Part shown: positions 21,401 through 49,911 of the stretch, in pieces
Layout: the number at the start of each line of letters is the position of its first letter
Numbering within the stretch: position 1 is the stretch's first letter
Source of the DNA: Phoronis ovalis
Lineage: Eukaryota > Phoronida > Phoronidae
DNA: 51,166 nt
Direction of reading: 5' to 3'
Assembly (NCBI GenBank): GCA_028565635.1
Contig: JAOXYB010025845.1
Coordinates: 1-51,166 of the forward strand
The notes under the pieces: generated by a model
What the model saw: only the letters and a program-made list of their open reading frames with translations
Database searches by the model: none
Told to the model about the DNA's origin: nothing
Program-made: the position numbers and the translations under genes

Positions 21401-24400
21401 TATTGAGGGTATAATCAAATATTGTCTTTCAAAAAAAGTTTGAAATTTTTAATGCAAGTACTTGTATTATTCCTATCACTATTAAGAATGATAATGTGGG
21501 CTGACAGAAATCCATCTTATCTTCAATTGCACATTTGAACTAATAAAATTTACTTATTATAAGATGCACATGCTGCATTAATACTCAATTTTTGTCAAAC
21601 AACTGTTGAAATACATTTGGAACTGTATTAAAATGTCTTCCACCAAAACAGTCACATTTGTAACTCTATAAACAATGTATAGCCTGGACAATGTAGTGTG
21701 CTACAAATATTGGTCAGTTATCCTTCTAGCATGCTGGGCATGACTGTCCATGTATTTGGCTGTATTGTGTTTATTCTAAGCTAAAATTATCATTTTTCAG
21801 GAGAGACAACTTCAAGATTCCAGACGAAAAGTGGATAATAAACCAAATGGAGATAAAAATAGGTACATTGTTGTTTCTTCTGGTATTTGATGGAGGGTTC
21901 TCAAAATATGTTTTAACATATTTATCTTACCTGTTTTCTTGTTATAAGTTAAATGTTACTGTTTATGTAGTTTCTTCGTAGTGATTGTCTGTTTGTAAAT
22001 GTAGTTGCATGAATTGTGTTTTCTTCCTGTCCCCAGATCTCCAAATTTACAGAACAAAGTCAATCTCATCAGACAAGCTATCAGTACCGCACGCACATCA
22101 AGTTTTAAAGAAACTCCCGGATCACCAATTATTCCACGGCACCAGCTGGTAAACAGAACAAATTCGTTAAAGTCAGATGAAAGTAGTAGTGGAGGTCGAA
22201 CACCAAAAGTCAGACGAACTCCTAGTTTTACTACCAGGTGAGTATCATTTCTGTATTTATTGTACTAAACATGATCTATAATCATGACAATTTGTGGATA
22301 AAATTAATTTGAAGGCAAGTGCCAGGTAACATTAACTCCTGGGATGTATTGTACTTATTCCAACAGTTTCAATGTATAGAAATGGATCAGTGATCACCTT
22401 GTTGTTATCCTAAAGTAAGTGTGATTTTGTGGTACACTTTCATAAATTTACGGTTAAAAATTTCTAACTAACTAGTAAATATATTAACTTCAAACACAAA
22501 AGAATCTGTAGCTCAAAAGTAAGGAATAGCACAATTGCAGCTTTTTATGTTTAATAGATTAACACACCCTATGTAATAATGGCGGTGCTTTTACCATAAT
22601 AAATACTAATGTGGACATAGTGGCTTGAAAAATTGCAACTATTGTGATTATCTTTGCAGGAGACGCACACAAAGTTTCCGAGATAAGTACCGCATGCCTG
22701 CAGAACTACCTCCTACTGAGAAGGAGGGTATATTGGAACGAAAGCAAGAGTTACAAAGTGGAGGCAAGAAAGCTGCTATCAGATCTTGGAAAACATACTA
22801 CACAGTGCTGTGTGGACAGCTAATGTGTTTTTTCAAAGATAGACAAGGTAAATATATAATAAGGCAATCAAGATGATCTTAAAAAGTCTAGAAGAAAAAT
22901 GAATAATTTTGAGACATTAGAATTATATTTTTAACAAAAACACGAAAAATATGTATTTTATTTGAATGTATAGATTTTGTAAAACGTGAAATATTTTAAC
23001 ATTGTTTTATCTATACATTTCATAGTATGGATAAGATCAATTGATCATCCATGCACAATTTAACAGCATTGTACAACATTTGTAGAACTTTCTAGTGTCT
23101 CATTGTTTAACTTTATGCACAGTATTATTGCCCTATATTTTGTTATTTCAGCCCTGATTGACAACAATGCTGCATCTTCACCTATTAATCTGCATAATGC
23201 TATGTGTGAAGCAGCTGGTGAACATTCCAAAAAATCACATGTTTTCCGTTTGAATCTTTCCGATGGTGCAGAGTTACTATTTACAGCTTCCTCCAAGGAA
23301 GAAATGCAGGACTGGATAAAGAAGATTGTATTTTATGCTGGTACGTGAATGATGTGATATATTTTTGTTAAGAACAAAACTCAAACATAGTCACCTGCAG
23401 GCAAAGGGATGTGCATTGGTGTCAAAATCAAATATGCATTATTCTACAACAAGTGTTATGGTGTGCTACATTCAGCTGATTCAGGAGCATTCTGGCATGT
23501 ATTGTGTTGTAATTAACCATACATTTCCAGCAAAAAATTACATATCTCTTGTTGAAGTTGCAATGGAATTTGCACCATAATATAATAACCAGGATAGTTC
23601 ACCATGATGCATGACAATATTTATTTACATGTATATACTTAATTTGTTTATGCATTCTTTTTTATTTATTTCAGGTTTGCCACCATCGCTGCAGTTGATG
23701 ATATTTGATCAAGATAAGTGTTCTAACAGTCCAGCCGCAAGTAGCAATCACTCTTTGACAGGTAGTGCTACATCTAGTAGACCTGACAGTCCAGTAGAAG
23801 AATTACCAGTAGTGGTAGACTTTTCCCTGACTGATAGCCAATCAGAGACGAGCATGATTGAGCATACATCTGCTGACCAGACTCAGGCCATGGAACTAAT
23901 TACTGATATTGATGCACTACTTAATGAAGATAGTACATCATCTGAGGAAGAAGATTCAAAAATGGAGTCTCCAGTCAGGCCTCCAATTAATTTTCAACAA
24001 GCAAAATGTGCACAAGGATCCCCTACAGTTACCGAATGGAATGAAAAAGATAATTCTTCAGAAAATATGAACATACCTGTATCAGCCTTCAACAGATTAT
24101 CCAAATCACCATCAAGAAATAATAAACATGAAGCATCAGGGAATAATGCAGTGGAAACTTCAATCAATGAAAAATTAATACAAAATACTAAGACAGTTGT
24201 TCAAAGATCATCAAGTCCAAAGCCCGATGTTTTCAAGAAGACTTCTGTGGAAATTTTAGCAAGAAAGCCACTAAGTAGTCCAGTGATAGCTCGTAGGACT
24301 CCCTCACCACATTCTAGGGCATATAGCATTGATAGTCATGTCAGAACTCCCTCACCACGGTTGCAACACATAGATGATCCAGTCACACCAAGCAGGATTT

Positions 24401-27400
24401 CTGAGCCAAATAATCTTAGTAAATTAGATAGTTTAAACAAGTTCATCCCAAGATCAAGATCAGGTAGTGACAGGTCTAATTCAAGTGCTGAACTACCCAT
24501 CAGTCCTAGTCCACACAGGTTTGCTAGAAGTCCTAGTCCATACAGAGATGCTAGGAGTTCTAGTCCCTCTAGGTACATTGACAGAGCATTAAGTCCTAAC
24601 AGTACTAACCTAAACACATCTTCTAGAAGTCCTGTTATGTCCAGGAATCAAACGGATAGTCCTAATTCATATCGTTCACAAGCTAGTCCTGCTCTTAGTC
24701 ACAGTTCAAATGATTCAACTCCGCCGTTGCCTACTAAAGGTCCTCCCGTTCGGAGTCCAAGTCAACAATCTTCTGGGAGTAATTCAGAATCGTCACCAGA
24801 TGGCAGATTTGAAAAATCGTCACCAACAGATGACATTAGTACTTTATCTAAAATGGACAGTCCCTTAATGTCAAGATTTGGACATCCATTTGGCGGAGGC
24901 ATTGCGAGAAGTTTTCATGGTAACACGGGTCTCAAAATGACAGGACATAAACTACAGGAAAATTGGGCTCAGAGGAATATAGAGATTGTTTCTAAAGTTG
25001 AACCAAGCCCTGAACCTCTAAGAGCTCATAAAACTGAAAAGATAACTTCACAAATGGAAGATAGCTCAGATAGTGCTGATGAAAGTCCAAGAAATGACGA
25101 TTCTCTTTCATCACCTCGCCGTTCTGCTGTACCAATTCACGAGCGTTTAAAACTGTTTGGTGAAAGTAATTCTAATGTGCAAGCACGAGTTAGTCAGACT
25201 AATGAAATCAATCCTAATGTGCAGCCAGGTCTAGTACAAAGAGGGTCACAGAAAAAGTTTACTCCTTCCGTGTTTCAACCAAGTCCACAATTACAAACAA
25301 AATACGATCAGCAACCACAAACAAAACCTTCAGAAAAATCTAAAAATGTCTTGTCAAGATGGCCACCTGCATCTGCATCATCAATTGAACAGAATCCTGA
25401 GATTACAACTTCTTCTGTTCCACCCATAAATCGCTTTACTGGGGAACCAATGTATAGATCCAGATCTGATTCTCAACGCAGTAGTATAAGCGAAGATATG
25501 GGACGAAAAAGTAATGATTTCAATGACCAGATTGTTTCAGCCATGTATGGAGATATTGTGTTTGGTCCAAAACCGGGACGTAAAGGTCCCAAACCTGGCT
25601 ATGCATTTGACGATGGTGATGATGATGAAGATGAATTAGACAGCAGTACTGATGAAGAGGATGGCTTTAAACTTGCTGCTGTACCTAGCGCTGCTGTTAC
25701 TGATACAGATGAAGAAGATTGGCCTGATATTCCTGACAGACCAAAGGGTAAGTACCAGGACTATTTGTTAGTTTGCATTGACATACTAGTTTGTTGGAGC
25801 ATCATGTTTTGTATTTGCCTTTTCCACAGTTTAATTTTTAGTGAATTCAACATTATGTATGTAAAATAGCAACATTAGAAAGAATCATATTTCTACATAT
25901 TATATGTATTTTGTAAAAAAGATTATTCTGTTGTGGGCTACAAAGATGTCCTTGTTGAGTTATTTTGAACTATATTATTGAAATACCATCACATAGCAAA
26001 ACAAGTGCATAGAACAACATGATGATAATGAAGCTGCTTGTTGATGCAAATTATGTGACTTATCAGCTGCCTATTCTAAAACTGTACCAGTATTTTATTT
26101 CCTATTATTACACAATAATATTATCATGATACTAATTTCATGCTAACAATCATGAAGAATGTAAATATTGTGATGCTGAATGATAAACTATGCTTTATAT
26201 TTTGTTGCTGTAAGTTTGGTGATGGCAACAGGTACCAGTCTTTGTTGTGTAGTGATTTATTACTTTTGCATGATTTGTTCAGCATCTGATAACATAAACA
26301 TGTCGGAAGGCAAACTTTTCAAGTAGAGTAGCTTTCCTTGCAATATAAAACTGCCTATTCAGTTGTAATGACATCCAAATGCAAATTATGTACATCATAA
26401 GTCAGATTTAATTTATTTTATATCTGCTACCAAGAATTACTCTGGAAAGTTATTTCCTTGATGTGTGGCATATTTTTACTGGTACTGGAAAATATGTGTT
26501 TCCGAATATTGAACAAAAATGGTGTAACTGTACATAATTATGCTTTTCGTGTAAATAGATGTTTTAGCATGGCATATAGAAGTTGCCTTGTCACTCTTTA
26601 TGTCTGCATCACAGCTTTGCTGGTATTGGCTCAGTGCCCATGTGTAATTATAAATGTCTCAGTCTTTTATAATTTCTGTATATGAAAGAAATAATGCAGC
26701 TATTGCTTTTTGTCTTATTAAGCATATTTTCCATATGCGTCTCACCATTGGTTTGTTATTTTCTACCATGTGTCTGAGCTGATGTTTAAGTTTAAGGCTT
26801 ATTTGTTGTGTTCTTTTATTTAGCTACAGTAACTACTGCAAAAACAACTGAGACATCATCCCAGAAGGTGAGTTATCTTCTGTCATTCAACAGATACCAT
26901 CTCAGTAGTTGTTTTTTCCTCATACTAAAGTTAGATATGTATACATTGTATGTCTACAATGTGGTGGCTCAAAGTAGCTTAAACTCTTAGAATATAGGTG
27001 ATATTTTATTATATGCAAGTGGGTAGCTTTCTAGTTGTTCCTAAGAAAGTCCTAAACAAGGTTAAATGTAACTTTCAGCATGGTTTGTTCATGAAATCCA
27101 TATAGTCTGTTCAGTATCTTAAATTTGCACTGTTTGCTCAATACAAAAATTGGAGCTTATACTATGTGTTAGTGCTTACATGAAACTAGGACATGAAATA
27201 AATACATCAACATTTATTTTGTAGCTTGAAGCACCATTAACACCTAGTAAACCACCACGTCGACCAAAGACTCAAGCTCCGCCTCCTCCTCCAGTCAGCA
27301 TTGGTATTATACCACCCCAACCTAGCAGACCGGCACCAATACCTCCTGTGCAAAGTGAACCAACAGACATGACATGCGGTGACCATGAGAAAGTTACTGC

Positions 27401-29919: not shown

Positions 29920-32900
29920 CTATACTCCCTTAACAACTGACAGCAAAAGCTTCTTATAGTCACCACTGCATTCATTGGCAATCCTATCTTCAAGAGACTC
30001 GCTATACATTTCTTGATATTTCATTTTTATTTCCACTAAATCAATCTGAAAACAAGACATTAAAAAACTTAAAATCCAAACATTTTCAAATACCATGGTA
30101 GCGGGTCTTTTTTTTGTAGTGCTTTAATCAAACAACTACAAGGAAAACAAAAATTTCATCCAAAACATCGGTTTCCTTTTATTGAATAAAAGTAAAAAAC
30201 AAGCCAATGACATTTTAATATATAACCAATAAGTAAAATTCAAGATTCTCAACACACAGTTTTCACATAAAATCTTAAAATTTGAAGGGAATTTTACATT
30301 GCACAACATCTTCATCAATTAGATTTGACTCAAAAGGTATTTTAACACAGCATTCCCAGGTAAAAAACTAGTAATAATTAACCTGGTGAGAAAATCAATT
30401 AAAATTGCTAAATTTCTGTTTAAAGCTTTTTTACGCTCAAAGTACATATTGCAGCAAAATGCTTCAATCTACAAAGCGTTCAAGAGTTGGGGAGGTGTAT
30501 GTAATTCAGCAATATGTATGTAATTTTAGTAATTAAAATGAAGAGATAGACATATAAAAGTAGACATTTTAAAAAAGTTAATATTTCAAATTTTACAAAT
30601 CCTGATGTTAAATAATTTGAATTCCATTATATGACCTAATAAAAGCCATTTTAGGGATAAAAAAGTGTTTTTTAAATTTTAATTTAAAAAAAAAATTAGG
30701 TCAAAAACCCCTGTATACCTACAAATTGAAACTTTGCACAGATGAGCTATACATGTATCTACAAAAAGGTGTCTTAGATTTTTTAATTTTGCTTTGTTGA
30801 AAAGTTATTTTAAGCTAAGCAAAAGTTTAAAAATTTGACACTGTTTTGTAGATCTTTATACTAAGATAATTTTTGCCAAGTTTCAGCTTTGTAGGTGCAA
30901 GGGTTTTTGATTTGAACTTTTCCAAATATTATAATTCAAAAAGCACGTTTTTCCGGAAATGCACGTTTATCAGATCATGAGAATTATAAGGGTTACATTA
31001 CTAACACCTCATATTTATATCTTATACTCTATATTTTATATCTTATATTCCATATTTGTGTTGATACATATATAGACCATCAGTGTGCGACATCTGGTGG
31101 ATAGTTTTTGAACCACTGTAGGGGAGTGAGGTTAGTAATCAGAGAGGAAAGAACAAAGTATGGTACGGACGTACCACATTCAGTAAATATAGATAATTTT
31201 TGTGAAGTTTAAATCTATTTTTTTGATATTACTGTAAATCTATAGTACTACCTTGTGTATTGCAAGTCACATTTATCCTTCAAACTTGACCACAGGTAAA
31301 AATTTATGTTGATGTTGCTGAACTATGTGTCTATAAAAAGTAGGCCATATATGATATACTGACTTTGGTGATTTAATTATCCGTCCTTGGAAGCTGTAAC
31401 TATAATTATAGTAGTCCCATATTCACTAGTTTATCATGATAGTTACGTCATTAGTATTTAGATATTATATTTTCAAGTATTATATAGTTTCTTTATTTAT
31501 TTGTAGTTAATCGTTGCAAGTTTGTGTATCTCTGAATCATACAGTATTTAAAGAGTTTTTCAAGAAAAGAACTTGTGATTTGTTGTAAAATGACTTGATG
31601 TAAGTAAACGCATTAACGAACTCTACAAGAATTGTTTTCAACATTATGCCTATGGATTCATTAAAATTGAAGAATAATCTTTTAAAAATTGTATACTTTA
31701 CATGTCTATCTCTTCATTTCGATTGTGAAAATTTATAAAGAAAGTTATATATAATAGTCAAATAATAGTGGTTTTTGTATCTCGAGTCCTTATTACCACG
31801 ACTCCCAAACATTTTGTACATTGAAGCATTTTGCTGAAAAGCGTGTTTTCATAAAGGTTTCAATTAAAAAATAAATAATTTATCCATTTTGTAGCGGTAG
31901 TGACATTTTGCATTCCATTCAAGAATTGTGAACTTTTAAAAAGATGAAGTGTGAGTAACACAGACATCCTTACCTCGGACCTTGAGACAATGAGTCTGAT
32001 CAACATGTTGTCATCTGTACCTAATCCATTCATTGCTTCATGTAAAGATTCGGTATAAAAACATATAGGGTCATCTAGTGCTTTTACTGAAAAAATATTT
32101 AGTCTTAAATAAGATTGCGGACAACAGTTTTATTTTATGCAGAATATTTCAATAATTGCAGTAAACCTCATACTATGAGTCAATTTTAAACATAAAATAT
32201 TGCTTATTTTGATAGTAGCTATAGTCTAAGGGTCATTGATGCAATACATAATATGGACTGTATGTCAATACAATCCTGTTACTAACTAATTTAGATGGTA
32301 AACTTGTTACAAACAAAATGTGGCAATTAATAGTTTATGACTTTATTCTGATGTGTATTTGATAATTTGCTTCAAAATAAAAAAATTGTTGTTTGCCTTA
32401 ATTAAAATTGACTTGGAGCCAATGATGCAATTGGCTGTTTTCTGGATAGTATACATGCAGGTACCTGCTAGCTTAGGTACAACAAAAAGAACTTATCTGG
32501 TCATATGTACTCACCAAGAGCAATGAGTGCATCTTCTAAGTCTCCAACTGTTGCCTGTTTAATGCCGTCCACCAATGAATGACCAGCTAGCTTCTTGTAC
32601 TCTTCAATTATTAGTTTGGCCTGTTGCCGATTCTTTTTAGTTAAGATTTCACGGAATATACCACTATTATAGTCGAAAACATTCTGGCCATCCTACAATA
32701 ACAAATACCAAATGTGCTAATTAAAAAGAACAATTAGACCATCTTTTACAACACCGAAGGAATAACTGTCAAATCTGTAGTAGGGATTGGTAATGTTGGC
32801 GACTTTATGAAATAGTGATGTTGAATTATGAAAATTTAGAACTTAGCCAAAAAAGGAAAATAACAGAATTAATGTAACTTTTTTTATGTTAATTTGCTAA

Positions 32901-35900
32901 GAATCAGAAACAGGTGCAATCACTGTATTACCTGATGCAGCCTAGCAGCATCATCCTCAGCATGTCCCTGATTCACGTCATAACTCTGATCACGATCCCC
33001 TTTTGCCAGTTTTAACATTAATTCAGCAAATTCTCCACTGGTATCACCTTTGATGTCCTCGCTTAGCTCTTTGCCATAAGCTGTTGGCAAAAAATTAGTA
33101 TTAAATCATTTGCAGGTATGAGATACTGACACTTCAGTATTTATCAGCCGATTTATTAGATGTGACAAATTTGCATCGAAGTCCCTACTGTTTTACTGCT
33201 TACATTATTATGATTTTTTTACCTCCATGTACATGTCATTTGTATATATTAATATAATTATGTTTATAAGGCTACAAATAGTAGAGTCAAACTTTTAGAA
33301 CAAGACATATGAAATAGGTGTATTATACTTGATAGCAATCAACATAAAGAATAGATGAATTATGTTGAAGGCATATAAGCTAGATTAGTCAGTTTAACTC
33401 CTTATTGCTCACTCAAACTAAGCAACCCAGTTAAGACATTATTGGAACAAACCTTTAGTGTACTGTCGCTTGATAGCCTCAAGTTCTTTTGATGTTCGAG
33501 TTACCAGTATTGCTATGAGAACACTCTCCTTTGTCCCCACTCCCATCATTGCTTCATGAAGACAATAGGCATCAAATCGAGATGGAGTCATCAACAAAGC
33601 CACAATCAACTCCTCAAAATTACCACCCAACTCAGACTCTAATACAGATTTCAAATCCTGAAAATAATATCAAATGCATCAAATCTGCAGCATTTTACTT
33701 GTCACGTACTTCTGGAAAAATTATGCTAACCTTATAAATGTAACCGACTCTTGAAAGATGTTGTGTAAAAGTCCCTCTCAAATGCTGACATTAATTTACT
33801 GTTCCTAAATTCTTTACAAGATTTACAAATTAAAACATACTAGACAGACCAACTAACCTGGTTATATTTGTCCATATACATTTTCCTTATCTGTTGCCTT
33901 TGTGCATTGCTTCTGCCAGCAAGTATATCAATCAGAGGCCCTTCATCTGTACCCCAACCAGCTATTGCGTCTTTGATGTCTTCTACATCCTTTTCAACAT
34001 TGAATGTTGCCGAGGGTTTCACTGTACCAGATGTTTTTGGTGGTGGTTTATTCACACTCTTTGTTTTCTTTTTTCGGTTCTCCTTATTTTTTGTTTCTTC
34101 TTTCGTTTCGACACTATTGCTCTGTTTCTCCCTAGGTGAGGTTTTCACTACTTTTTGGTTACTTTCTTTAGCCAGTGGATTTGAACGCATACTGTCTGGA
34201 GTTTTAGGTTTAGTATCAGGTCGTTTAACTGGTGAACGCCTCGGAGGACGCTGAATATGTATTGGTGATGTCTTACTCCTGGTTTTATATTGAAATTTGG
34301 ATGGTGGATTTCTGGATGCTAGAGACACAAGAGTATGTCCAATCTCTCCCTTACATTTACTTCTCATATCCACAGTTAATTCACGTCCATATTTCTTTTT
34401 ATAAGCATGTCTAATTTCTGGCAAATCTAGTTCTGCATGTGATAACAGAACTTTTATAAATTCGGGATTATGCGAATCCATTGTATTGCGTAATTTTTCT
34501 GCATAGAACATGTAAGGAGACGAAAGACATTTTTCTGAAATTTAAAAAAGACATCTTGTAGTCTAAAATCCTATATCTAACTGAATGCCTAATCAAAAAA
34601 AGGGTTTTGGAAAATACCTTTTGAAACCAAGTACAGACTTTTGTTCTTATACAATGGAAATCAACCCTGAACAATGATTTGTATAATTATGTATTTCACG
34701 TAAAACTACTCACCTAGCCTTTGAATTGCCTTTGCATAGTCAGGTGAACACTCTTTAGACACCATCTCCGATACACTAATACCTGCATTATATTGTTTAA
34801 ACATGGCCATTGTAGCACGGACATGAGCAAAGCTTCTCTCATTCAGTAGTTTAATAAATTTGCCACTATCACTTGTCCAACGACCATCACCAGACTCATG
34901 GAGATCTTCAGCCTCTTTTTCAACTAAACTTTCATCAATGTCGTTATTATCCACAGGAGCCTTCTGTGAAGGTAAAGAAAGTGCTGCTATATAATCACTC
35001 AAACAATTTCAATTTTTAAAAAAATGTAACAAACACTTAACTTATTCATCCATAAAGCCAATCAAAGGTGTTGCTTATGTCAAATTTGCATCAATCTGCA
35101 TAATAATAAGGAGAAGGGGAACAAGTCTGTGGGTATAAATACAATTAACACACCTGCAAACAGGGGTAGCTGATAATTAATTTCTCCAGTAGGTATAAAA
35201 ATAACATATAATAAATAAGACAAAAATGCAGTTTTGTATGTACCTATTTTCAATATTAATTTATTATGAATAAACTAAGAAAATGGTTCTTGCTTTACCT
35301 TGCACAGAGTCAAAAGCAATGATTGACATTCTCTGTTATCTATGTAAGATTTGATATCATCTTCTATACTCGAGTTATATTCTGAAAAACAGTTTTATTT
35401 GACATTGTTAATTTATTCACAGGTGCTGGGATCAAATGTGGAAGGTTCCAAACTCGTACGAATGTCTAAATAATAAATTAATTAATTAATTATAAACAAC
35501 TATAATATATTTATGAACTGCACAAGCAAGATTTGAAATGGATTACAGAAAATGGACATCAAACTAAAATGCTGACTTACTTTTTCTATAAGCGTTTTTG
35601 ACAGCTCCCACTGAAGATTCATTTTTTGTGCACAGTATTTCCACAAGATTTCCTACCTGTAATGCCCAACCAATAACAAATATGATAAAGTAAAATGTAG
35701 ACAACTGTGGAATAATAAATTAATGTAAAACTTTCAATGTCAGTTGGTGGAGAAGGGTTACTATAAGTACTTGAATGGTCAATATTTTCACTGGTCCTAA
35801 CTTTGGTACTGCACTTTAATGAAATGAAGTCAAGCTGTTACTTTGTAGAACCAAAGAAAATTAAAGTTCAATTTATGTGTAAAACTAAAACAGATAAAAA

Positions 35901-38900
35901 GAATGTACATTAAGAAAATATCAAAATCATACATCTTTACTCTCTACAGCATCATGTGTGGTGACTGCTGTGGCCATATTGGAATCACCTAGTAATAATT
36001 CGATCAACAGATCAAAATCACTATCAAGTACATCTCGCAGCTGAGCATCCAAGTCCTGGAAGAACAGTAATAATTTGAATATCTCTGATATGAAACTGAT
36101 TAGATACAATGTTGAAATCCACACATATAATTTTCAAGTTGGAATGCTAAACAAGACTTTTTATACAGAGCAAAAAGAAAAACAATGGACCAGTTGTTAG
36201 TAAAGATTTCTTACAAAATCACATTTGTGATTGATTTAAACTAGAATCAAACTGATTAAGTTAATTAAAAATAATTGGTGAGTTTGTTTTGAATTTTATG
36301 TCGACTACGTGTAGAATAATTAAGGACTTTTGTTGACTAACCAAATCATAGAGTTCTTTAAAACGGGTCTTGATCAACATTCTTTGTCCTCGACTTCGTC
36401 TAATGAGAGTTTTGTTCAAAGAATCTTGTACTGGTGCTAGAATAAAAACTAATGCCATTAGGATGACATAACATAAACCAAGAAGACTCTAGGAGAGTGG
36501 TTCAAGTCTTGTTCACTAGAGGGAGATCATGAAAAATCATGTAATTAGTCAGCCTAGTACTTAAGTATAAGACAAAATGGTATCTCTCCTGAATCCTAAA
36601 AGGTAGTCACTAAATTTACTTATTAATGAAGCTTCATTACACGCTATATATATAGCTTAGGCATAAATATATGGTTATCAAGTTTTTCAATATTTTGCAG
36701 CAGAAAAAGTTTCAGTTGCTGCCAACATAATTCAAAATTTCAAAAACTCTAGGTAGCAAATTGACCAATTGCTTGGAGATTGTGGTGATGGTATAAGTTA
36801 ATGACCTAAGACCTAAGCTGTAAAATGTATCCATAAAAACTAATTAATAAATACAAGAACAGAGAAATTGTTGTCAATAAAAATTACATACCCAAATTCT
36901 TACAAGCTCTGAAGAGAAGTTTAGCATCCTGATCCGTTTGACTTTCTCTTAACTGAAAATATAAAATGATCCCAATGTTTTATTTTACGAATGAGACTGC
37001 ATGATACACGAAGCAGTTATAATCTCATAAAACATGTTTAATATTATAAAACAAGAATTATATTAAAACTAGATGAAATGTAATCATGAAAAAATGAGAT
37101 GACAAGATAATATGTATTATAAAAGTTCACAAACATGGAATTCATATTTTGTATGAACAAATTATAAATCGAAGTACTAAAAATTAGTATTCTAAGATAA
37201 GTAATTAATATAATAATGTTAAATTATATAGTGCGAAGATGGGCATACACATATGTAAAGTAAATTTTGTGGTTAAGTGTTGTGTATTGTTGTATTGGGT
37301 ATTTATCATTTTATGCATCCTTTTGGCATATTTGAAAGTTTGAATTAACGTAGCTGCCATACTATCAAACAGCTAATGCATGCAACAGTTGAATAAAGAA
37401 TGAAAAACTCCAAATAACCACAGACTGATACAATTTCACAGAATAAGAAACTAGCATTCAAATACACTGTATTATTATAAACCATACTGCCTTGAAATAG
37501 TCTACCTAACCCATGAAATGTCAGTGGATCAATAAACCTGTTTAATATACCTGTACTCAGGAAATGATGACAAGGAAAACAGTGAGAATGCTAAAATAAA
37601 ACATTTGGTTTCTATATACACGCACAATACATTTAAGTCTAAGCCATTATAACATTTAAAATACTGATGATATGCTGGCAATGTAATTATATCACAAGTG
37701 TATACAACTGCATTGTTTATAAACTATTATTCACACTAGCAGTATGATTGCAGCAAGTCACAATCAAATAGACCACCTGGTGGAAAGCAATATTACTATA
37801 TCACAGCAAGGATTCTCCTAGTATAGATACTGGAACATTGAGTGTAATTACGAAATATCTAGTTCAGTTGATTTTTGTTACTGTTTGTAATTATGAGTCC
37901 TGACAATTACAAATCAGTAACAAGCATAGAGAATTGGTTATTTGCAATATTAACTTGTTATTCACACTGTAACATTTTAGTTGGGTATCAGATGTCATAT
38001 TTAGAAAACAGCAAAGGGATTAATCACACACTTTGGCAATAAATAATATACAAAACATGTCACTTCATAGCAAAAGCAGATATTAAATACACACTTCCTT
38101 GGCATATATATTTTACGTAAATCACATACTTTGAAAGCTGGCATGAGATTAATTGTATTAAAGTTAATAAAGCTGTTAATCACCTGTTTAGTTTTAGCTT
38201 TTATCTTTGGTAAACGTTGTACCTGAGGAGATTGTTGTTCTCGTAATTCCTGTTCCAGGGCCTGGTGTTCTTTCAGCTGCTGTTCCTGTAACATAAGTCA
38301 ACATGAAAAATCTAAACTTTTGAACTCAAACTTTGCATAATTCTTTACAAAACTGTTTGCTCAAATTTATGATTTATTTACTAAAAAACAATAATACAAT
38401 ACAAGGGAATTTATATCCTGTTTATCCTGAAAATATATCAATTTTTAAAGTAAATTGGGCAGTTTTAAATTTCTTATTTTATTTATCATATCAATGCAAA
38501 TTTAACCTATCCTCACAATAAAATTCCAGGGACAATTACAAAGACAAAACAGTACAGGTTTTTACAAGTTTGAAATAACTTAATGTATCCACTACATAGG
38601 TGCAATATAAAAGCAACACTCCGAACACTCACTGAATTTTTCACACTTCCTTTGCTATTTGTAATAAGGATTGAAGTTGACCTCCTTGACATTCTCTACA
38701 AGCAATAACCGTTAGCGTGCATGTTAGACAGTGATATCTGTACCCAAGGGGGTACCTTGGATATATTTTGGGGTGGGAGTGTGCCACTGAGGGTAACATT
38801 TTTGGACTAACTCTATACCAAAAATGTGGAAATTTGGACCTCAAGATTCCAAAAATTCCAAAATGAGTCCAGAAATATACCAAAACTTCAAAAACATGTC

Positions 38901-41900
38901 CCGAAATATACCAGCAATCAATATGTGGATCAACATCCAATGTCATATATAGTGTACAGCACATTCATTATTTGTTTTATTAGATATTATTCGCTATTTG
39001 TTTGAAAAGTAAACTTGAAATACATCTTTCCAAAAGAGTTCTTGACTAGGCCTCAAAAACTATACCCAAAATATATCACAGGAGCATATTAAAAGATACC
39101 CCGAAATATTCCAAAATTTGCCAAATAAGGTACCCGAGCCAATGGCACATCCCCGTCAGTTCCACACACTAAGAGACCCTGGGTAACTGTATTAGGTCGC
39201 AATAATTATTAAGAAGCTGTGCTTTGCAACGTTAGCAGACTGCATATTAATTTAATAGCATATTGATACATTTAGGTTGACATTTAAGTACAATGTTCAG
39301 ATCATGATCCCTGGTGTTACCTCTTCATTGTACATGCATGGACTACTGCCAATGGTGAGGAAATTAGAGAATGTCTATGTTTAAAAAAGGCTGCACTGAA
39401 TTCTCAATAAATGAGTCAGCTAATAAGCATAGTGCAAAACAATACTATCCACAGTAATAAACTAGATATACTAATTCTTTAATAAAATTTACTTATAGTG
39501 CTGTGCAAAATAGTTAAATTAATATAAGAATACTGTCAACTAAATTACTATGTTTTTGTACACGTTACAAGCATACCTCTTGCATAGATTTGACCTTGAG
39601 ATATTGGGCTGTACTTGCTGTTACTCCAAAATCATTTGTTGCTTCACTCCACACTTTCATAAGTTCCTCTTTCTTCTTATAGTCCTCCTCCTAACAGAAA
39701 ACAATTAATTCAAGAAAAATAATAATGATATTTTCTTTGCATAGGTGAGCAATATTAATTCATTTAGTCATTAATCTTCAATAGACTTTTTGCATGTTCT
39801 TGCCATTGACACCATCAGACCCTGTTGATCCTTCAGTTGCGTACAATTCCTGGTTTTCAAAACCTGCCTTTAAATATGTATTACATGGCGCAATTTTATG
39901 AAAGTAATAAAAATATAAATAACTGTTTAAAATATAAATTACAAAGGAGGGCAGTTCTTATATGGACAAGAAGAAAGGCTTCGTGACTTTCCAATTTGGT
40001 TAGATCCTTAAGAGTACAGTATATTTGTATATTATCTAAACAGTATCCACACCTTCTACTAATTAAGGCTAAAAAAGTTACAGGTAAATACTGTATATCT
40101 GTTTCGCCATATTGTAAGTAAACGTTACTGTCTCATTAGAACTTACATGTTCTACCAAGTTGATCTGTGGTTTGACATGCCGAAGACGTTTTGCAATTTC
40201 TGCATTCTGTTCAGCAATTTTTTGAAGTTCCCTTTCTCTATGTATTTGATTCAAACTGAAATATGAAACAGAAATTCTAATGTTGTTGCAGGAAGTACTT
40301 TTGCATTCAATTGTAACATAACCCTGACTTTACATGCAAAACCACAGAAAAAATATTTACATGTCAATAAAAAACTAAGAAAAGACAAAATAAATCATGT
40401 AACAGTAATTCTTTGTGCTAAACCTATTACTATGTAGTCAACAATTTTTTTTCCAGTGGTTTCTTATTGATATTTTCAGGTTCGAAGACTATTTCATTGT
40501 GGTAAATATAGAAGAAATACAAAGGAACTGTAAATACTGGAATAATGATAAAATAATAAACATGTGCAACAAATGCTGCTTATAGCTGGCGTACTCAGTG
40601 AAATGAAAATCTAAATTCTAAACTTAGGGTAAATAGAAAATTCTAATCATATCAAACATACTTTCGATGTTTAATCAAGTTAAAGGAAAACATTGAATTG
40701 AGTATTACATTTTACAGATGTAAGTAGTATGATGACAAAACTATTATTGAAAATTATGATGTTTATACTGAACAATGTTACCATAGAAACAGATTTACTT
40801 CCACATTTACATAAACATAATGCAATATGCAGAATACTTTTCATCATATTCTAATTTGAACAAAATACAATCATGAAATCTATCATATTCATTACTTTGT
40901 TGTAAATACATGAAGAAACATTGGGTACAGGCAGTATGATATTTTGAAATACTTATCATTCAAAGTTTTTTATGAATGAAAATAAGCATATATAGTGTTC
41001 TCAATTTGAGGCATACAGTACAATTCTACATAAAAGATTCCTGCCACAAAATTTGGACTTCAAAAAGTATTCTCAAGCCCATAATTGTCAAATCAATGAG
41101 AAATATCAAGTTTTATTAATTTGTACTAGGACTCACAGTGATTCTCACCTCTTTGTTTCATAATCATTCCAGTTATCTATCATTCCACGTCCCTTCATAA
41201 TACCAGACATTCTTGACAAAAGAATGGTATTGTCATATTCAATATTCGACTGGCGTTCTTCATCCAGCTAAACAACAACACACAATTAAAATTGGCTAAT
41301 TATATAATTATAGTATCCTATTTAAATGTTAAAAGAACTAAACAGGACAATTATTTTATCAAATAACTTAAACTAGTGTCAAAATATGTGTTGCACCAGC
41401 CAATTTGAAATTCAATTTTTTATTTTTTTTTCCAATTTAAGAGTGTTGTACAAGTTTTGAAAAACAAAAATGTGAAAAGAGTGTGTGGAAGAAGTTGAAA
41501 AATATAAAATATTGTTAATAAGAGTTTCTAACATTATACATGCACTTTTTGATAAAACATGTTGTAACAATGGAATCCAACAATTAAACAAATATTTAGT
41601 TCCGTTATTACGTTGTATCATAGAACACTTATTTCATATGGATTGAAATAACCCTTGAAAGTAGATGAACATAAGAACATCGCAAACACTTTCGTAGTAT
41701 CAATTCTTCGTTTTTGTTTCACCAGTTAAACAATTTATACATGTTACGGTTTTCTATGTTAGCTATAAACATAGGTATAGTTCCGTGGCATCATAATTTG
41801 GTTAAAAGATCTCATTAGAAACCAAAATTACCCCTTACTCAGTTCAAAATGTGAAGCAACATAAAAGTTTGGTATCAAAATAAATCTCAAGGCATGTATC

Positions 41901-44900
41901 CTTACTTTTAAAATGTGAAAAAGTTGTATTGCAATACTCAATTATTTGGTAAGTTGTTTGAAACTGTTGAAAGGATCCAAAATAGGCATACTTTCAGTCC
42001 TTTATGATTTTCATTGAATCATTTTTAACAGCTTTAAGTAACACTTAGACAAACCAAAGAAAAGAAACCATTTATGGATCCACAATCAAGAAGTTTAGTT
42101 ACAGCACAAAATAGGGTATTAAAAAGGTAATATGTTCATTTTGTCAAACTTGCCAAATTAAAATTTCATAAACAGTGTATGGAGTGCACTGTTCATTTTG
42201 CAGTACCTTTTGCGCAAATTATGCAATTTTGACAGTGTGGAAGAGTATGAATTTTAGGAAATAACAACAACCTACAAATTAATGAGACATATAAATTTTG
42301 AAGAAATTATGGAAATTTAAAAAAGGAATTTTGGTGCATAAATTTAGGAAAGTTATGCAAATTTTGTAAAATGGATGCAGGTTAGAAGCAAGGGAGATTA
42401 CAAGCAAGGGAATTGAGAATTTTAACTGTAGGACAAGTTTCCACACTTTAGTATTTACCTGCAACTTTTTTAGCCTGAGTAGCACGTGTGGATATTGTTT
42501 AGGAGGTGTGGTGTCCAATGTGCTCTTCCTGGAATGCATCTGCAATGAAGTAAATTTTACATGACAATTTGAAAGTTTGTATTATATTTTCCTTTTATAT
42601 AAATAATTTTGAAATAAATTTGAAATCCTTAGCTATGTATTTTATCAGAAATATGATACACTGTAAATAAATCTAACATTTCAGGTTGACTACTTTATGC
42701 AACACAATATTTTATTATGCCAACAATAAAAGGATATTTGCCACCAAATTGCCACCACAATTTTAATAAAGCAACATTACCAAATACATACTTCAAACCA
42801 GCTCATTGTGAAAAAGTACAAGGAGACCTTTGAACTCTAGAGTTCCAAAAGTATCCAAGCAGAAATAGCAATTTATTATCTTTATAAACACATATTATAG
42901 AAACTAATGTTTACTTGAATTCAGCCACAGTAAGTACATTATAAAGTTCCATTATAGTGCTATGGTTTGATGAAATAAATGTCAAACAGAAAATACTAAA
43001 AATGTCAAATAGCAAGTAGCTTTAAAATAATAGTTATCTCGCATACACAGCTGTTAATCTCCATAGTGACAGTTTTGAAAAAAACAGCACTTGTAACTAG
43101 GATGTCTAGGATGTAGCTGAATGTCCTATTAATTTTGAGACAGCAGTAAGTAAACCTATTTTGGATTTTTGATACTTAAATCAATTATACCTAATTCTCA
43201 TTTGTTTCATGCCCATTTAAATAATACACCTCTAGTGTTTTTCCAGTTATGGAAATTAATTGATTTCGGCATATCACTGAAATTAACCTGCAGGCATTCA
43301 ATTATTTTTTTTACATTTACCAATAATTATAAATGTTATATTAAAGCAATCTCCTTGTCAAACAGAATTAATTCTTAATAGTTCATTGCTTACGTCAATA
43401 TGCATTGTCAAGTCTTCACTTCACTATGATGCATCTAAAATGATTTATTAATTATCATCACAGCAATATTAATTTATCTTGGATACATACCTGTACAGCA
43501 AGTGTGTAATGAACCATAAGGACTTTGTTAAGAATGTGGCAGGAAATTAACCCCACTAACATACTAATCAAATCACTGTCTGGTCATTTTTATTATAGCT
43601 AATTACAATATACAAGTTTACTTTAATCGCGACATGCAAATACAATATATTTCTGCAAATTTTTAAATTCTAACTAAACTATATACAACTAATTTTATTC
43701 AAATAAATGAAAACTTGATAAAATCCCAGGAAACATGATGTATTTGAAAATTACTGTTAAAAAGGAAAATTATAGTAACCTATCAAAAGCAATTTGTGAA
43801 TGATCTATTAATTAATCCACTTACTGACGTAAAATGGGATTCTGTTATTTGAGGGGTGTAGGTGGGGGGGTCTCCATTCAGGGTGCAATGCTCCCAATTT
43901 GCAAATGCCCCTTGCTTAAGAGGCAAGTTAAAAAAAAAAGGTTGAAAAAAAAGCTTGCTGCTCGCATTTAAGAGACAATGGATGCTTGCAGCTTGGACTT
44001 ACTCGCAAAAGCCCCCTACAGCCCACTTATTTTATACACATGCTTCTTGAGTTTCCTGTCAATACACAGACCCAACTGGATTACATCAAGAATGCTTATT
44101 ACATAATATTTTTAAAATATTCAGATCATATTATTTATCACCAATTACTATTGCTTAGGTTAATTTATTTAACAAGCAGCATTAATGTTAATCCCATTCA
44201 TAATCCCACTTGTCAAAAGAACATTTTGTTTATTAGAATATGATCCTCAGAAGATAATAGCCAATACCACCTAGACAGTTGATAAGATAGGCTAAATACA
44301 CAATACAAACTCTACTTAAAACTGATAACACCAACTCAAATTGTGATCAAACAGTTATGACACCTATTGTAAGCTATGTTTCAATGAAAAAAACAACATT
44401 TTACTTGTTCCTGTTACAACTATGTTATAAAATGTTAACTAAATTCAATTCCTCCTGGGGGGGGGTTTTTAATGAAGTTTGCATGTTAATTTACATTTAA
44501 AATTAACTTTGTATGAAATTACTGAAATTGAAGCTGTTGAATTTTCTACAGTGTACTTTCTAACAGAAAGGCCATGCTATTTGTAATGGAATTTTATATA
44601 TTAACTGGATCAATTCTAATATACTCTACCTTTTGATTGAGGCCCATTATTATTTCACATGATTACAATGAAACGCCAGGGACTATTATATCTTTGTTTA
44701 ATAGTCCCAGACTGAAATCACACAGGTCGATCAGTACCAACTCTTTCATTGTCTGAAGTATGGCTCATCTTTGTAGTTTTATCTTCATTTACATTTGAAA
44801 ATCAGTAAACAGCAAAATACAGTATCCTAATCAGTATTTCTATTCTACTGAGCCCAGCTATCACAAGTCCTCTGTACCATTATACATCAAAAACTTTAAC

Positions 44901-45334
44901 TAAAAACGTAATTTTCTTTTATAGTAATACTATCTAAATATATTTTTAATATCTTAGACTGTCACATTGAATTTATTTTTATATTTCAAAGAATATAAAA
45001 AATCCTTTATAATCTGTTTGTTTGGGCTGGATCAATTTTTTGTTGCATGTATACTTACTAGGTATAGTTTATCAAATTTTTTTGTCAAACTTTTTAAAAC
45101 AGCAAATGATGGCGGGCATATATAGCCATGAACATTTATTAATGAGATCTCTTTATACAAGCATTCAGTCTATATTAACCTCTGGTTCTACACTGAGGAA
45201 AAACTGGGAGTTTCATTTTATAATTAGAAAAGGTATGCACTCACCTTCTCCTGGTGGGCTTTGTATGCTCTGTCCCGCCATTTCCTCTGTAAAAGCTTAC
45301 TACTCGGTGGAAAAGTGTCCGTCATTTTAGGCAT
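29920..45334 (-). CDS. CFAP97-domain/annexin fusion protein: one CFAP97 (Hemingway-type) module plus two annexin cores, 18 exons
   Basis: Minus-strand exons: 45245-45334, 42459-42539, 41149-41267, 40147-40255, 39577-39690, 38184-38285, 36892-36952, 36342-36436, 35933-36055, 35581-35656, 35299-35381, 34714-34963, 33858-34534, 33453-33657, 32932-33080, 32515-32692, 31974-32086 and 29920-30045. All phases agree, giving 916 residues. Residues about 45-130 form a CFAP97 domain, found in cilia and sperm-axoneme proteins. Residues about 206-509 and 613-916 are two four-repeat annexin cores (calcium-dependent membrane binders), with a basic linker between. The start chosen is the ATG at 45332-45334, the first after an in-frame TAA; a second ATG at 45325 is possible. 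No stop or new start separates the CFAP97 and annexin parts. Two adjacent genes wrongly joined remain the alternative. Confidence 0.85.
30046..31973 (-). other. Intron between the last two annexin exons, largely filled by an inverted-repeat element
   Basis: A 1.93-kb GT-AG intron splitting annexin repeat 8 in phase 0. Most of it is taken up by the element bounded by inverted repeats near 30446 and 31842. No coding signal was seen. Confidence 0.6.
30446..31842. repeat. Element with long imperfect inverted ends (about 1.4 kb)
   Basis: Left-end sequence near 30450-30490 (CAGCAAAATGCTTCAATCTAC) recurs in reverse complement near 31807-31836 (CAGCAAAATGCTTCAATGTAC). A second inner pair, containing AAATGAAGAGATAGACAT, lies near 30537-30556 and 31701-31721 in opposite orientation. 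The spacing of the matched blocks is similar on both sides, implying arms of about 100-150 bp. No transposase frame and no clear target duplication were found. The exact boundaries are uncertain. Confidence 0.6.
34004..34307 (-). other. Basic disordered linker between the annexin cores
   Basis: About 100 residues very rich in Lys, Pro, Ser, Arg and Thr (IQRPPRRSPVKRPDTKPKTPDS, KNKENRKKKTKSVNKPPPK). They are encoded in the same 677-nt exon as parts of repeats 4 and 5. Annexin A6, which also has two cores, joins them with a shorter connector, so this one is unusually long and positively charged. It could contact acidic partners such as tubulin tails or membranes; that is inference. Confidence 0.75.
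34307..36952 (-). other. First annexin core (repeats 1-4), degenerate calcium sites
   Basis: Repeat 1 has the helical hallmark RRSRGQRMLIKTRFKELYDLDL but reads ACKNLAPVQDSL where GxGTD should be. Repeat 2 has AVESKDVGNLVEILCTKNE and AYRKKYNSSIEDDIKS. Repeat 3 keeps a remnant (GDGRWTSDSGKFIKLLNERS). Repeat 4 has YMFYAEKLRNTMDSHNPEFIKVLL and AYKKKYGRELTVDM. The fold is clear from the repeat spacing, but no canonical type-2 calcium site (GxGTD/E) remains. The core was probably kept for structure or protein binding. Confidence 0.85.
38184..38285 (-). other. Joining exon between CFAP97 and annexin parts, with an alternative in-frame donor
   Basis: Encodes a Gln/Glu-rich helix (EQQLKEHQALEQELREQQ) followed by a basic stretch (QRLPKIKAKTKQ). 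It is phase 0 at both ends. A second good donor (CCTCAG|GTACAA, exon end 38223) lies 39 nt earlier, also in phase 0. Use of it would remove 13 basic residues without changing the frame. Confidence 0.75.
38737..39189. repeat. Possible MITE-like element with weak terminal inverted repeats
   Basis: The stretch begins TACCCAAGGG and ends CCCTGGGTA, near-inverted copies of each other. Inside it, GAAATATACCA-like words recur (near 38870, 38901 and 39100). Its composition differs from the surrounding intron. A 107-codon minus-strand frame here (38641-38964) follows the repeat and matches no family. No clean target duplication was found. Confidence 0.4.
39577..45334 (-). other. CFAP97 (Hemingway/KIAA1430-type) domain and following coiled segment (exons 1-5)
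   Basis: The signature runs across exons 2-4: PPKQYPHVLLRLKKLQ, then LDEERQSNIEYDNTILLSRM, then MKGRGMIDNWNDYETKSLNQ, then RERELQKIAEQNAEIAKRL. CFAP97 and CFAP97D1 have the same order: a PPK.Y.HL..KLKKLQ block, an EERL..IERDN..LL.KM block, a DNWN block, and an RE.EL..I..EN..IL.RI block. These proteins act in building or maintaining cilia and sperm flagella. Exon 5 adds a charged helix and VWSEATNDFGVTASTAQYLKVK, which I do not recognise. Confidence 0.85.
42540..45244 (-). other. First intron of the CFAP97-annexin gene (2.7 kb); nothing recognised
   Basis: AT-rich GT-AG intron with a few homopolymer tracts (G-runs near 43864 and 44457, an A-run near 43930). The open frames in it lack any family resemblance. 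Confidence 0.6.
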
Positions 45335-47526: not shown

Positions 47527-49911
47527 ATGGTCCTTAACCTTGGGAAGGCTATACAAGCCACCACTCCTGTATTTCTATTACTGTGCATTTTACGACGATT
47601 GGGCACAATGGCCTGGAGGTCAACTGGTGATACCAATGGTCAGCTTGTAGATAATCTCAGAAGTAAGTGATTGCGTATATCTCCAAAATACTTTGTTATT
47701 ATATATCCCAGTGTAGCAAGACCTCTTAGTGCAGGCTGTGAAGGTCATTGATAATTCACCTAATGATGGCCCTTGCAGCTTAATCGGTACCACTTTACTG
47801 GCAATAGTTTTCAAGTCTAACATAACAAGGGGAATAAACCCCCAACAATCTTATAATTACTTATAAGGCTTTACGACCACCCTTGCATGTATATCTTGAT
47901 TCGTAATTGATCTGTGGTCCCCAGATTTTCATCTATTTGTGTTAACTACACGTCACCTTGTTATAAATGGGCAAAATGGAAAACAACTGAAATCTATTTT
48001 GTGCATTTTCATGTTTTGGCACAAAATGATACTTATTTACATAAATTATATCATTTTCAGGGAATGGCATTATTAGTGATGATCGTGTATACAAAGCAAT
48101 GCTGGCAGTAGACAGAGGCCTGTTTTGCAGTCACAATCCTTATATGGATTCTCCACAGAGCATTGGTTACCATGTCACTATTAGTGCGCCGCATATGGTA
48201 TGTATTATTTATATTCAAGGGAAAGGTACTTCAGAATTTTTCATTCATAATGCTACTAAAGTATGTGGTATTGAACTGATAGCATAGCTTAAGATCAATG
48301 AATGATCATGCAATAAGCTTGTGCATTAACAACTCAAATTTGTAGTTAATATCTATTAATGATTATAGGATTAAACTATTATCAGGGAGAAAGTAAACTT
48401 CAGCTGTGTCAGACTGAAATTGTTAAAAATGTTTGGTTTTGTCAAGAAAATGGATGACAGTCTATCCAATGATAATCAGTCTTGTAGATACCAGCAGTAG
48501 GTTTACACCAGAGACAATGGCTATTGTGTAGCCGGATATAAAAGGGGACTGATGTCCATTGCGCATGGTAGAGCATTTCATCAATCCTACATGAAAGGAC
48601 ATGATGATGGGGAGAGGAAAGATTCTTTTGCAATATATTATTTCGTATTTTCTAGCATGCCCATGCTCTGCAGATTCTTTCTGGTCATCTGAAGGAAGGT
48701 GCTAGTGCATTGGATGTTGGTTCAGGAAGTGGTTACCTGACTGCATGCTTTGCACTTATGGTAAGTTTACGTGTAATTTTTGTTTCTGTATGCAAGATGA
48801 CAGGCAAATTTATTCTTGTTTAATCCTTGCACACTATAATCATATGTATGGTACCACTGAGAAGAAAATTAGTATTATTATATGTTAAGGAATGTCACCA
48901 ACTTTTCTGCTCGAGAAGTGCCTTTGTGTTTTATTAAGGTGCTTTGTTATTTGCCATGAAATTCCTTCTTTGAAATGTGGGGGAAAGAAGTCTTTCACTT
49001 GTGGTTATTCTTCTGCTATCATAGGTTGGGGAGACTGGCCATGTTGTTGGTATTGATCATATAGATGAATTAGTAAACATGTCTATAAACAATATGCGGA
49101 AAGATCCTAACCTGGCTGACTTGATGGCCGATAATAAGATGGAACTAGTTGTTGGTGATGGAAGGAAAGGTTATCCACATGGTGCTCCATATGATGCCAT
49201 ACATGTTGGTGCTGCTGCTCCTGTGTTACCACAAGATGTAAGTTATTTTAAGATACCATTTTCTTATGTGCAGTTTAAAATTCTTTCAGTCTTTCAAGTG
49301 CGTGTTTTGCGTTTGGCCTCCTAAAATCCATTTTCTACTCTAGTTCTTTACTCCTAGGTCATTTGCAGAGTTCTACTATTTCATTTTGTAGAATGAATCA
49401 TTAACCAACCACATCTCAACTTTAGTTATATATCAATCAATTTGCCATATTCACTCAGACCTATAAATGAACAAATGTAAATGACTCTGAATGATAAAGT
49501 CTCCTCTGCAACTCAAATTTTGTCAAATGGAGTATGTAATTGGATGAAGTATGTTTTCCACTAGGGTATCCCACTCTACACACAGCTGGGATAATTAGGC
49601 TTTTACCATTTTAATTTTGCTAACATTTTATTAGTAGTCTTGAAACAGACACATCTGTGTTATTGCGAAACAATGTATTTTTTGTATTATGTTAGGTAGT
49701 TTGTTACCAATAAGTTACTGATTTATTGTAGTTGATTGACCAGCTAAAACCTGGTGGTCGCCTGATATGCCCTGTTGGTCCCGAAGGTCACAATCAGCAG
49801 TTGGAACAGGTGGACAAGCTTCCAGATGGAAGTATTAGAAGAGAGGATCTAATGGGTGTCATCTATGTTCCTCTAACAGACAAGCAAAAGCAGTGGTCAA
49901 GGTGGAAATAA
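47527..49911 (+). CDS. PCMT1: Protein-L-isoaspartate (D-aspartate) O-methyltransferase, five exons, with N-terminal hydrophobic extension
   Basis: The enzyme transfers a methyl group from S-adenosylmethionine to isoaspartyl residues in damaged proteins, starting their repair. Exons are 47527-47662, 48061-48197, 48656-48760, 49025-49237 and 49732-49911, with consistent phases and TAA at 49909-49911, giving 256 residues. Visible marks are [37 protein letters not shown], the SAM motif [16 protein letters not shown] (residues about 109-124), [36 protein letters not shown], and the end [13 protein letters not shown]. The classic start would be MAWRS (ATG at 47608; 229 residues, close to the usual 227). 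An in-frame ATG at 47527 adds 27 residues with a hydrophobic segment ([15 protein letters not shown]), like the long vertebrate form. Either or both may be used. Confidence 0.95.

Follow-up and report, generated by a model that had tools for sequence, protein, structure and literature searches.

Does a single gene of the phoronid Phoronis ovalis encode a protein in which a CFAP97 (Hemingway-type) domain is followed by two tandem annexin cores, and what might such a protein do? The locus lies on the minus strand (45334..29920) of a 51,166-nucleotide stretch of contig JAOXYB010025845.1 (assembly GCA_028565635.1), referred to here as the window. Eighteen exons join in phase into one frame of 916 codons, from an ATG at 45334 to a TAG ending at 29920, with an in-frame TAA two codons 5' of the ATG; 17 of 17 introns display GT-AG boundaries. 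Exon joining and translation reproduce the coordinates, exon count, phases and length given in a first-pass annotation made from the letters of the window.

The domain content of the joined protein exceeds chance expectation by far. A Pfam scan places Hmw_CFAP97 (PF13879) at residues 27-121 (73.1 bits against a cut-off of 25.6, E 3.3e-20) and Annexin (PF00191) in eight stretches (355.7 bits against a cut-off of 25, E 1.1e-108). Residues 1-205 yield seven matches at E <= 1 among PDB sequences. Five are CFAP97-family chains, presumably all from axoneme structures and led by 8snb_4T (E 3.6e-26) and 8otz_Z (E 4.7e-19); the remaining two have E values of 0.7-0.8. The CFAP97 domain recognised at the protein start in the first-pass annotation is therefore upheld by both the Pfam score and the matched chains. 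The best PDB match of the whole protein is annexin VI (1avc, E 1.4e-121), which core 1 alone also finds (E 1.9e-54). In an AlphaFold2 model of the fused protein of Owenia fusiformis (P0005; 12-row alignment), with a mean predicted local distance difference test score (pLDDT) of 72.7, both cores consist almost wholly of helix, and their block pLDDT is mostly between 70 and 93. Foldseek on this model ranks annexin VI first (1avc and 1m9i, root-mean-square deviation 24 across both cores), followed by single annexins at a deviation of about 2. Given the low predicted template modelling score (0.41), the model does not predict how the parts lie relative to one another.

The joined architecture is shared with proteins of other animals. 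Relatives were sought by two protein searches, in which only candidates sharing most words were scored (7,995 and 7,981). The whole-protein search returned 62 proteins, 17 of which carry both PF13879 and PF00191 among their precomputed domains. Two of these 17 are given without a species; the others belong to Haliotis rufescens, H. rubra, H. asinina, Owenia fusiformis, Mytilus californianus, Lamellibrachia satsuma, Argopecten irradians, Mizuhopecten yessoensis, Pecten maximus, Ylistrum balloti, Liolophura sinensis and Ridgeia piscesae. The second search, with a 13-sequence alignment, returned four proteins, three of them fused: that of Lamellibrachia again, and those of Lingula anatina and Branchiostoma floridae. 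In total, 19 of 65 distinct proteins are fused, from 14 named species that we take to represent four phyla (molluscs, annelids, a brachiopod and amphioxus). Isoforms and closely related proteins make up several of the 19, which therefore do not amount to 19 independent cases. The first-pass annotation had named the lack of any such relative as one outcome that would speak against it, and the recurrence of both domains in 19 of the 65 returned proteins argues that the join is not an artefact. All 12 fused proteins that were re-scanned by Pfam yield both domains, and CFAP97 is absent from all eight others re-scanned (P0004, P0017, P0019, P0021, P0047, P0057, P0062 and P0063). The Owenia protein, 893 amino acids long, displays 44% identity across 100% of the query. 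Another fused protein (P0006, 934 residues) is encoded on a 3,408-base contig, which may be a transcript. A search with residues 1-240 only found nothing among 958 candidates, which reflects a miss of sensitivity and not absence, since the search with residues 1-916 found 17 fused proteins.

The relatives also bear on the possibility that two neighbouring genes were misjoined, a CFAP97-like gene ending with exon 6 and an annexin gene comprising exons 7-18. Exon 6 is the least conserved exon, with 0 of 15 identities to Owenia and 3 to 8 over 23-34 residues to the other ten relatives, and two scallop models contain annexins without CFAP97. Both would suit such a misjoin. However, exon 7 has no in-frame ATG and the next methionine lies inside repeat 1, and the joined order recurs in the 14 named species with the exon 6/7 junction read through (...KLPKIKSQKETSADADAKLLFRAVKQLA... 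in Lamellibrachia, ...RLPKIKAKTKQLRESQTDQDAKLLFRACKNLA... in the window). Exon 5, by comparison with each of the 11 relatives, retains 9-11 identities per 34-38 aligned residues. Exon 6 does contain an LP[KR][IL] motif that precedes core 1 in 10 of the 11 relatives compared, Owenia being without it. We consider a misjoin highly improbable; full-length relatives and the read-through junction sustain the earlier claim of one joined protein.

The calcium sites of the two annexin cores have had unequal fates. A type II calcium site of annexins consists of a GxGT loop and an acidic residue about 38-42 residues further on. Site columns were keyed to bird annexin A6 (P0022) in an alignment of the window protein and 11 relatives. 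In none of these 12 proteins does any repeat of core 1 hold both loop and acid, and the window core accordingly has 0 of 4 sites intact. Loop and acid are both gone from repeats 1 and 4; repeat 2 displays at most one of them (Owenia has GSG, Branchiostoma the acid), and repeat 3 retains the acid and has lost the loop. In core 2 of the window, the sites of repeats 5, 6 and 8 are intact and that of repeat 7 is lost (3 of 4). In repeat 6, GxG and the acid are found in 10 of the 11 proteins having the repeat, with Branchiostoma as the exception and with I or S replacing T in scallops. The loop of repeat 7 is lost in every protein having the region, annexin A6 included, and Branchiostoma keeps its acid; repeat 8 is unreadable in Lingula, Ridgeia and Liolophura. 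The two complete annexin cores of the first-pass annotation are thus complete as repeats, with eight stretches, but the first is devoid of an intact calcium site. Calcium-dependent membrane binding is accordingly possible for core 2 only. From molluscs to amphioxus, one of two tandem cores has no intact calcium site in any of the 12 proteins, and yet it is conserved.

The linker between the cores is rich in lysine and proline and basic: its net charge is +20 in the window protein, ranges from +9 to +16 among the 11 relatives, and is -4 in the single annexin A6 used for comparison. The proteins have in common an NPL or a similar motif there, which reads SPL for Owenia and the tubeworms and NPP for Lingula. 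Its counterpart in the Owenia model, residues 491-578, has pLDDT below 50.

Links between doublet microtubules and the ciliary membrane are visible by microscopy, and few of their molecules have been named. With a conserved axoneme-type domain and a calcium-competent annexin core in one protein, the fused family provides a testable candidate for such a link, hidden by its database labels. Setting out from what is directly established (the joined frame, the domains, the kept joined architecture, the calcium-site pattern and the linker charge), we favour, with a probability of about 0.52, the reading that the protein is an axonemal adaptor and belongs to an old bilaterian family, with its CFAP97 domain placed on the doublet and core 2 on the ciliary membrane when calcium is raised. 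By analogy with CFAP97D1, the N-terminal domain would attach the protein to doublet microtubules at their outer wall; if it binds as CFAP97D1 does, the annexins would point off the doublet wall, towards the membrane. Core 1, having lost its calcium sites, would probably act as a protein-docking unit, and the basic linker might be a flexible, possibly tubulin-binding spacer. Core 2, through the sites of repeats 5, 6 and 8, would associate with acidic lipids in the ciliary membrane upon a rise in calcium, so that the doublet might be tied to the membrane, or might receive a signal, in a calcium-dependent manner. Expression would be expected in ciliated cells. That the protein is an ancient bilaterian doublet-to-membrane tether, pre-dating the parting of protostomes and deuterostomes and replaced or lost in vertebrates, is a more tentative proposal, which we hold to be possible but somewhat doubtful. 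If true, this tether would offer a handle on the coupling of axoneme and ciliary membrane and on the effect of calcium on the beat.

Published work on the separate domains provides the setting for this proposal. CFAP97D1 is described as an external doublet protein of mammalian sperm, associated with EFCAB3 and TSSK6; TSSK6 lies outside the seam, and Tssk6 knock-out sperm miss both CFAP97D1 and EFCAB3 (PMC13066092, PMC11779644, PMC13406575). Doublet 4 is often lost in sperm of Cfap97d1 knock-out mice (PMC7444823). The fly CFAP97D1 is ciliary in chordotonal neurons, where its loss leads to broken axonemes (PMC10425847). Annexins, with no architecture given in the text cited, are among the genes common to ciliary cells of oyster and flatworm and also to those of oyster and sea urchin larvae (PMC10396302), and the sea urchin homologue of an annexin of Nematostella apical organ cells, again of no given architecture, is expressed in both the apical organ and the ciliary band (PMC4300403).

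Several observations weigh against a calcium-dependent ciliary adaptor. Core 2 sites are altered in some lineages, which a strict calcium-tether role does not predict: repeat 5 in Lamellibrachia, two scallops and Branchiostoma, repeat 8 in two scallops and Branchiostoma, and repeats 5, 6 and 8 all together in Branchiostoma. The annexin part may be made alone, as suggested by the models of two scallops without CFAP97 (P0019, by re-scan; P0020, by precomputed domains). These share their name and the size of their source contig with fused isoforms, and the annexin sequence of P0019 equals that of P0014, so that both seem to belong to the fused gene and point to alternative 5' ends. The first-pass annotation had named transcripts that begin anew before the annexin exons as a sign against the fusion; half of this picture is seen elsewhere, in these scallop isoforms, which occur beside fused ones. 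Elysia P0063, which sits among the molluscs on a long branch in the tree described below, has 16 annexin repeats and no CFAP97, representing either a loss or an incomplete model. No axoneme protein appears by name among the annexin PDB matches (best 60 of 83 and best 60 of 75), all of which are annexins or annexin A2 fusions by name. A home-made scan (at least 10 of 12 matching positions) found no X-box upstream of 45334; across the window it gave four such sites against 2.6 expected by chance, one of them (36715) within the gene. The literature searched yielded nothing on where a fused member is located or expressed, or on what it binds.

Part of this evidence could be accommodated by a joined and ciliary protein whose annexins are scaffolds for tubulin or axonemal proteins instead of membrane binders, calcium binding by core 2 being a relic. 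The site-less core 1 in all 12 proteins, the altered core 2 sites in scallops, Lamellibrachia and amphioxus, and the basic linker would all suit a scaffold, as would the reported interaction of alpha-14 giardin with tubulin and the labelling of Spironucleus annexin 3 around the outer doublets (PMC4863580). A relic, however, would be expected to be lost, whereas repeats 5, 6 and 8 are intact in the window and repeat 6 is kept in 10 of 11 proteins, and we regard the scaffold as rather unlikely. Alternatively, the joined protein might act away from cilia and link microtubules to membrane in the cytoplasm, its CFAP97 domain being newly used. This would be in line with the lack of an upstream X-box and with Hemingway staining in Drosophila, in which mature sperm showed no apparent localisation of the protein (PMC10425847). 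Against it stand the axonemal and flagellar phenotypes of CFAP97-family mutants (PMC7444823, PMC10425847) and the PDB matches of the domain, the significant ones being the five CFAP97-family chains. This renders an extraciliary role improbable, and the calcium-dependent axonemal adaptor remains the reading we prefer.

The history of the fusion is approached through a tree, introns and other loci of the genome. In an unrooted tree of 15 proteins, the window protein falls among lophotrochozoan members, beside Lingula at a support of 87/85, which is not firm, and Branchiostoma and two annexin A6 rows are set apart from the rest at 96/97. The latter grouping agrees with, without proving, a fused family that has annexin A6 outside it. 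An independent fusion in amphioxus, with which the same unrooted grouping is also compatible, was judged unlikely, because Branchiostoma has KLPKI, the linker stretch NPLAxPSQR (as in scallops) and a calcium-free core 1. Judged from these sequences, a single origin of the fusion before the protostome-deuterostome split is suggested. The vertebrate proteins returned by the whole-protein search carry no PF13879 among their precomputed domains; given the scoring of only those candidates that share most words, loss of the fusion in vertebrates is no more than hinted at. Haliotis members contain an additional third annexin core. Multi-core annexins without CFAP97 were also encountered, with 16 annexin stretches in Capsaspora P0004 and in Elysia and 12 in Orbicella P0017, and a sea star protein (P0021) has eight repeats and no CFAP97. 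Orbicella P0017 was considered as a cnidarian member and set aside as uninformative: it lacks CFAP97, starts mid-repeat and may be truncated. Scallop P0019 starts with an alternative N-terminal stretch that is long, and in Ylistrum P0015 a stretch of this kind accompanies CFAP97.

By visual comparison of the sequences, the placing of introns is likewise in agreement with a single frame and matches, in part, that in two other genes of the genome. Introns 2 and 3, which flank exon 3, coincide in place and phase with those of a CFAP97-type gene on contig C3711, and intron 1 is off by about four codons. Three annexin introns are common to the window gene and an annexin gene on contig C475: after the repeat 1 loop (phase 1, at the end of exon 7), before a DL (phase 0) and after YTK/YRK (phase 1). 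By this agreement, the CFAP97-side exons stop at a phase-0 boundary ahead of the first annexin-core exon, which fits an origin by exon shuffling, as far as such positions can tell.

No second fused copy was found by comparing the window protein and pieces of its relatives with the whole of contigs C3711, C475, C4051 and C789 and with 28,899 of the 30,903 bases of C1396. The CFAP97-type gene of C3711 has no annexin match. C475 (11.7 kb) and C4051 (10.3 kb) contain annexins and no CFAP97 match, and upstream exons could be cut off from contigs this short. C1396 carries a CFAP97-domain frame, by Pfam search alone; the only match there, a weak low-complexity stretch resembling a coral annexin (E 0.017, 22% identity), was dismissed. 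C789 displays one divergent annexin exon (4499-4675), similar to core 1 repeat 4 and to the repeats of the coral protein P0017, possibly from a second degenerate annexin gene. A CFAP97 family search of the genome itself reported C3711 and C1396 and missed the window, where the domain is split over exons.

Among known systems, vertebrate annexin A6, with eight repeats, resembles the fused protein in its tandem pair of cores, and it is the best PDB match by sequence and fold. It differs in having no CFAP97 domain, a short linker with the negative charge given above instead of a long basic one, and, in P0022, GxG loops and acids in repeats 1, 2, 4, 5, 6 and 8. Annexin A6 comprises two calcium-competent cores and no other domain; the fused protein has CFAP97 and a site-less core 1. 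The CFAP97/CFAP97D1/Hemingway family (PF13879) is akin to the N-terminal 133 residues of the window protein and, in the C3711 gene, to its introns 2 and 3, but the matched PDB chains are 158-231 residues long, too short for an annexin core, against 916 for the fused protein. The alpha-giardins and other diplomonad annexins provide the flagellar parallel drawn in the first-pass annotation, and the parallel holds: diplomonad annexins occur on flagella, some near outer doublets or interacting with tubulin, in a distant lineage and with no CFAP97 domain mentioned in the part of the source cited (PMC4863580). The pairing had been called undescribed, and no description of it appears in the literature searched for CFAP97, KIAA1430, hemingway and annexin architecture (titles and abstract openings), nor among the papers listed for annexins in axonemes and mollusc sperm. 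The fused proteins bear the database labels 'annexin A6-like', 'titin homolog', 'Annexin A13' and 'uncharacterized'; as far as searched, the joined architecture is deposited in databases but undescribed.

Table 1. Exons and sequence features of the fused CFAP97-annexin gene in the window
Feature	Coordinates	Strand	Residues and content
Exon 1	45245..45334	-	1-30, start ATG; MPK start also in Owenia P0005
Exon 2	42459..42539	-	31-57, CFAP97 domain
Exon 3	41149..41267	-	58-96, CFAP97 domain
Exon 4	40147..40255	-	97-133, CFAP97 domain end (Pfam stretch 27-121)
Exon 5	39577..39690	-	134-171, extension after CFAP97
Exon 6	38184..38285	-	172-205, linker of weak conservation
RLPKI, LP[KR][IL] motif	38202..38216	-	195-199
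Exon 7	36892..36952	-	206-225, annexin repeat 1 first helix
Exon 8	36342..36436	-	226-257, annexin core 1
Exon 9	35933..36055	-	258-298, annexin core 1
Exon 10	35581..35656	-	299-323, annexin core 1
Exon 11	35299..35381	-	324-351, annexin core 1
Exon 12	34714..34963	-	352-434, annexin core 1
Exon 13	33858..34534	-	435-660, core 1 last repeat, linker, core 2 first repeat
Basic Lys/Pro-rich inter-core linker, NPL motif	34029..34316	-	508-603, net charge +20
Exon 14	33453..33657	-	661-728, annexin core 2
Exon 15	32932..33080	-	729-778, annexin core 2
Exon 16	32515..32692	-	779-837, annexin core 2; repeat 7, calcium site lost
Exon 17	31974..32086	-	838-875, annexin core 2; repeat 8 loop GLGTDD
Exon 18	29920..30045	-	876-916 and stop TAG, annexin core 2; repeat 8 acid kept

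An Rfam scan of the window gave no match. Elsewhere in the assembly, the 15.7 kb contig C1114 probably represents the mitochondrial genome. Translation of its COI gene makes sense under the invertebrate mitochondrial code (table 5), as would be expected if the animal is a protostome, which it probably is, and ARAGORN with the bacterial code reports no tRNA on the contig. The remainder of the window contains plus-strand exons (3187-23348) of a gene of the spectrin family, with spectrin repeats at 3187-3627, 9636-9908 and 20119-20409 and a PH domain at 23064-23348. These are followed on the 3' side by a 753-codon Ser/Pro-rich open frame (23608-25869) with no Pfam match at E 0.001. Minus-strand frames between the spectrin exons (13871-16198) encode Fibrinogen-C (13871-14545) and PAN (15785-16198) domains, apparently in a gene nested in an intron. 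An inner exon of a protein-L-isoaspartate methyltransferase gene (PCMT) lies on the plus strand at 49025-49324, at a distance of 3.7 kb from where the fused gene starts. The first exons of PCMT must lie nearer still, which makes the two genes divergent neighbours.

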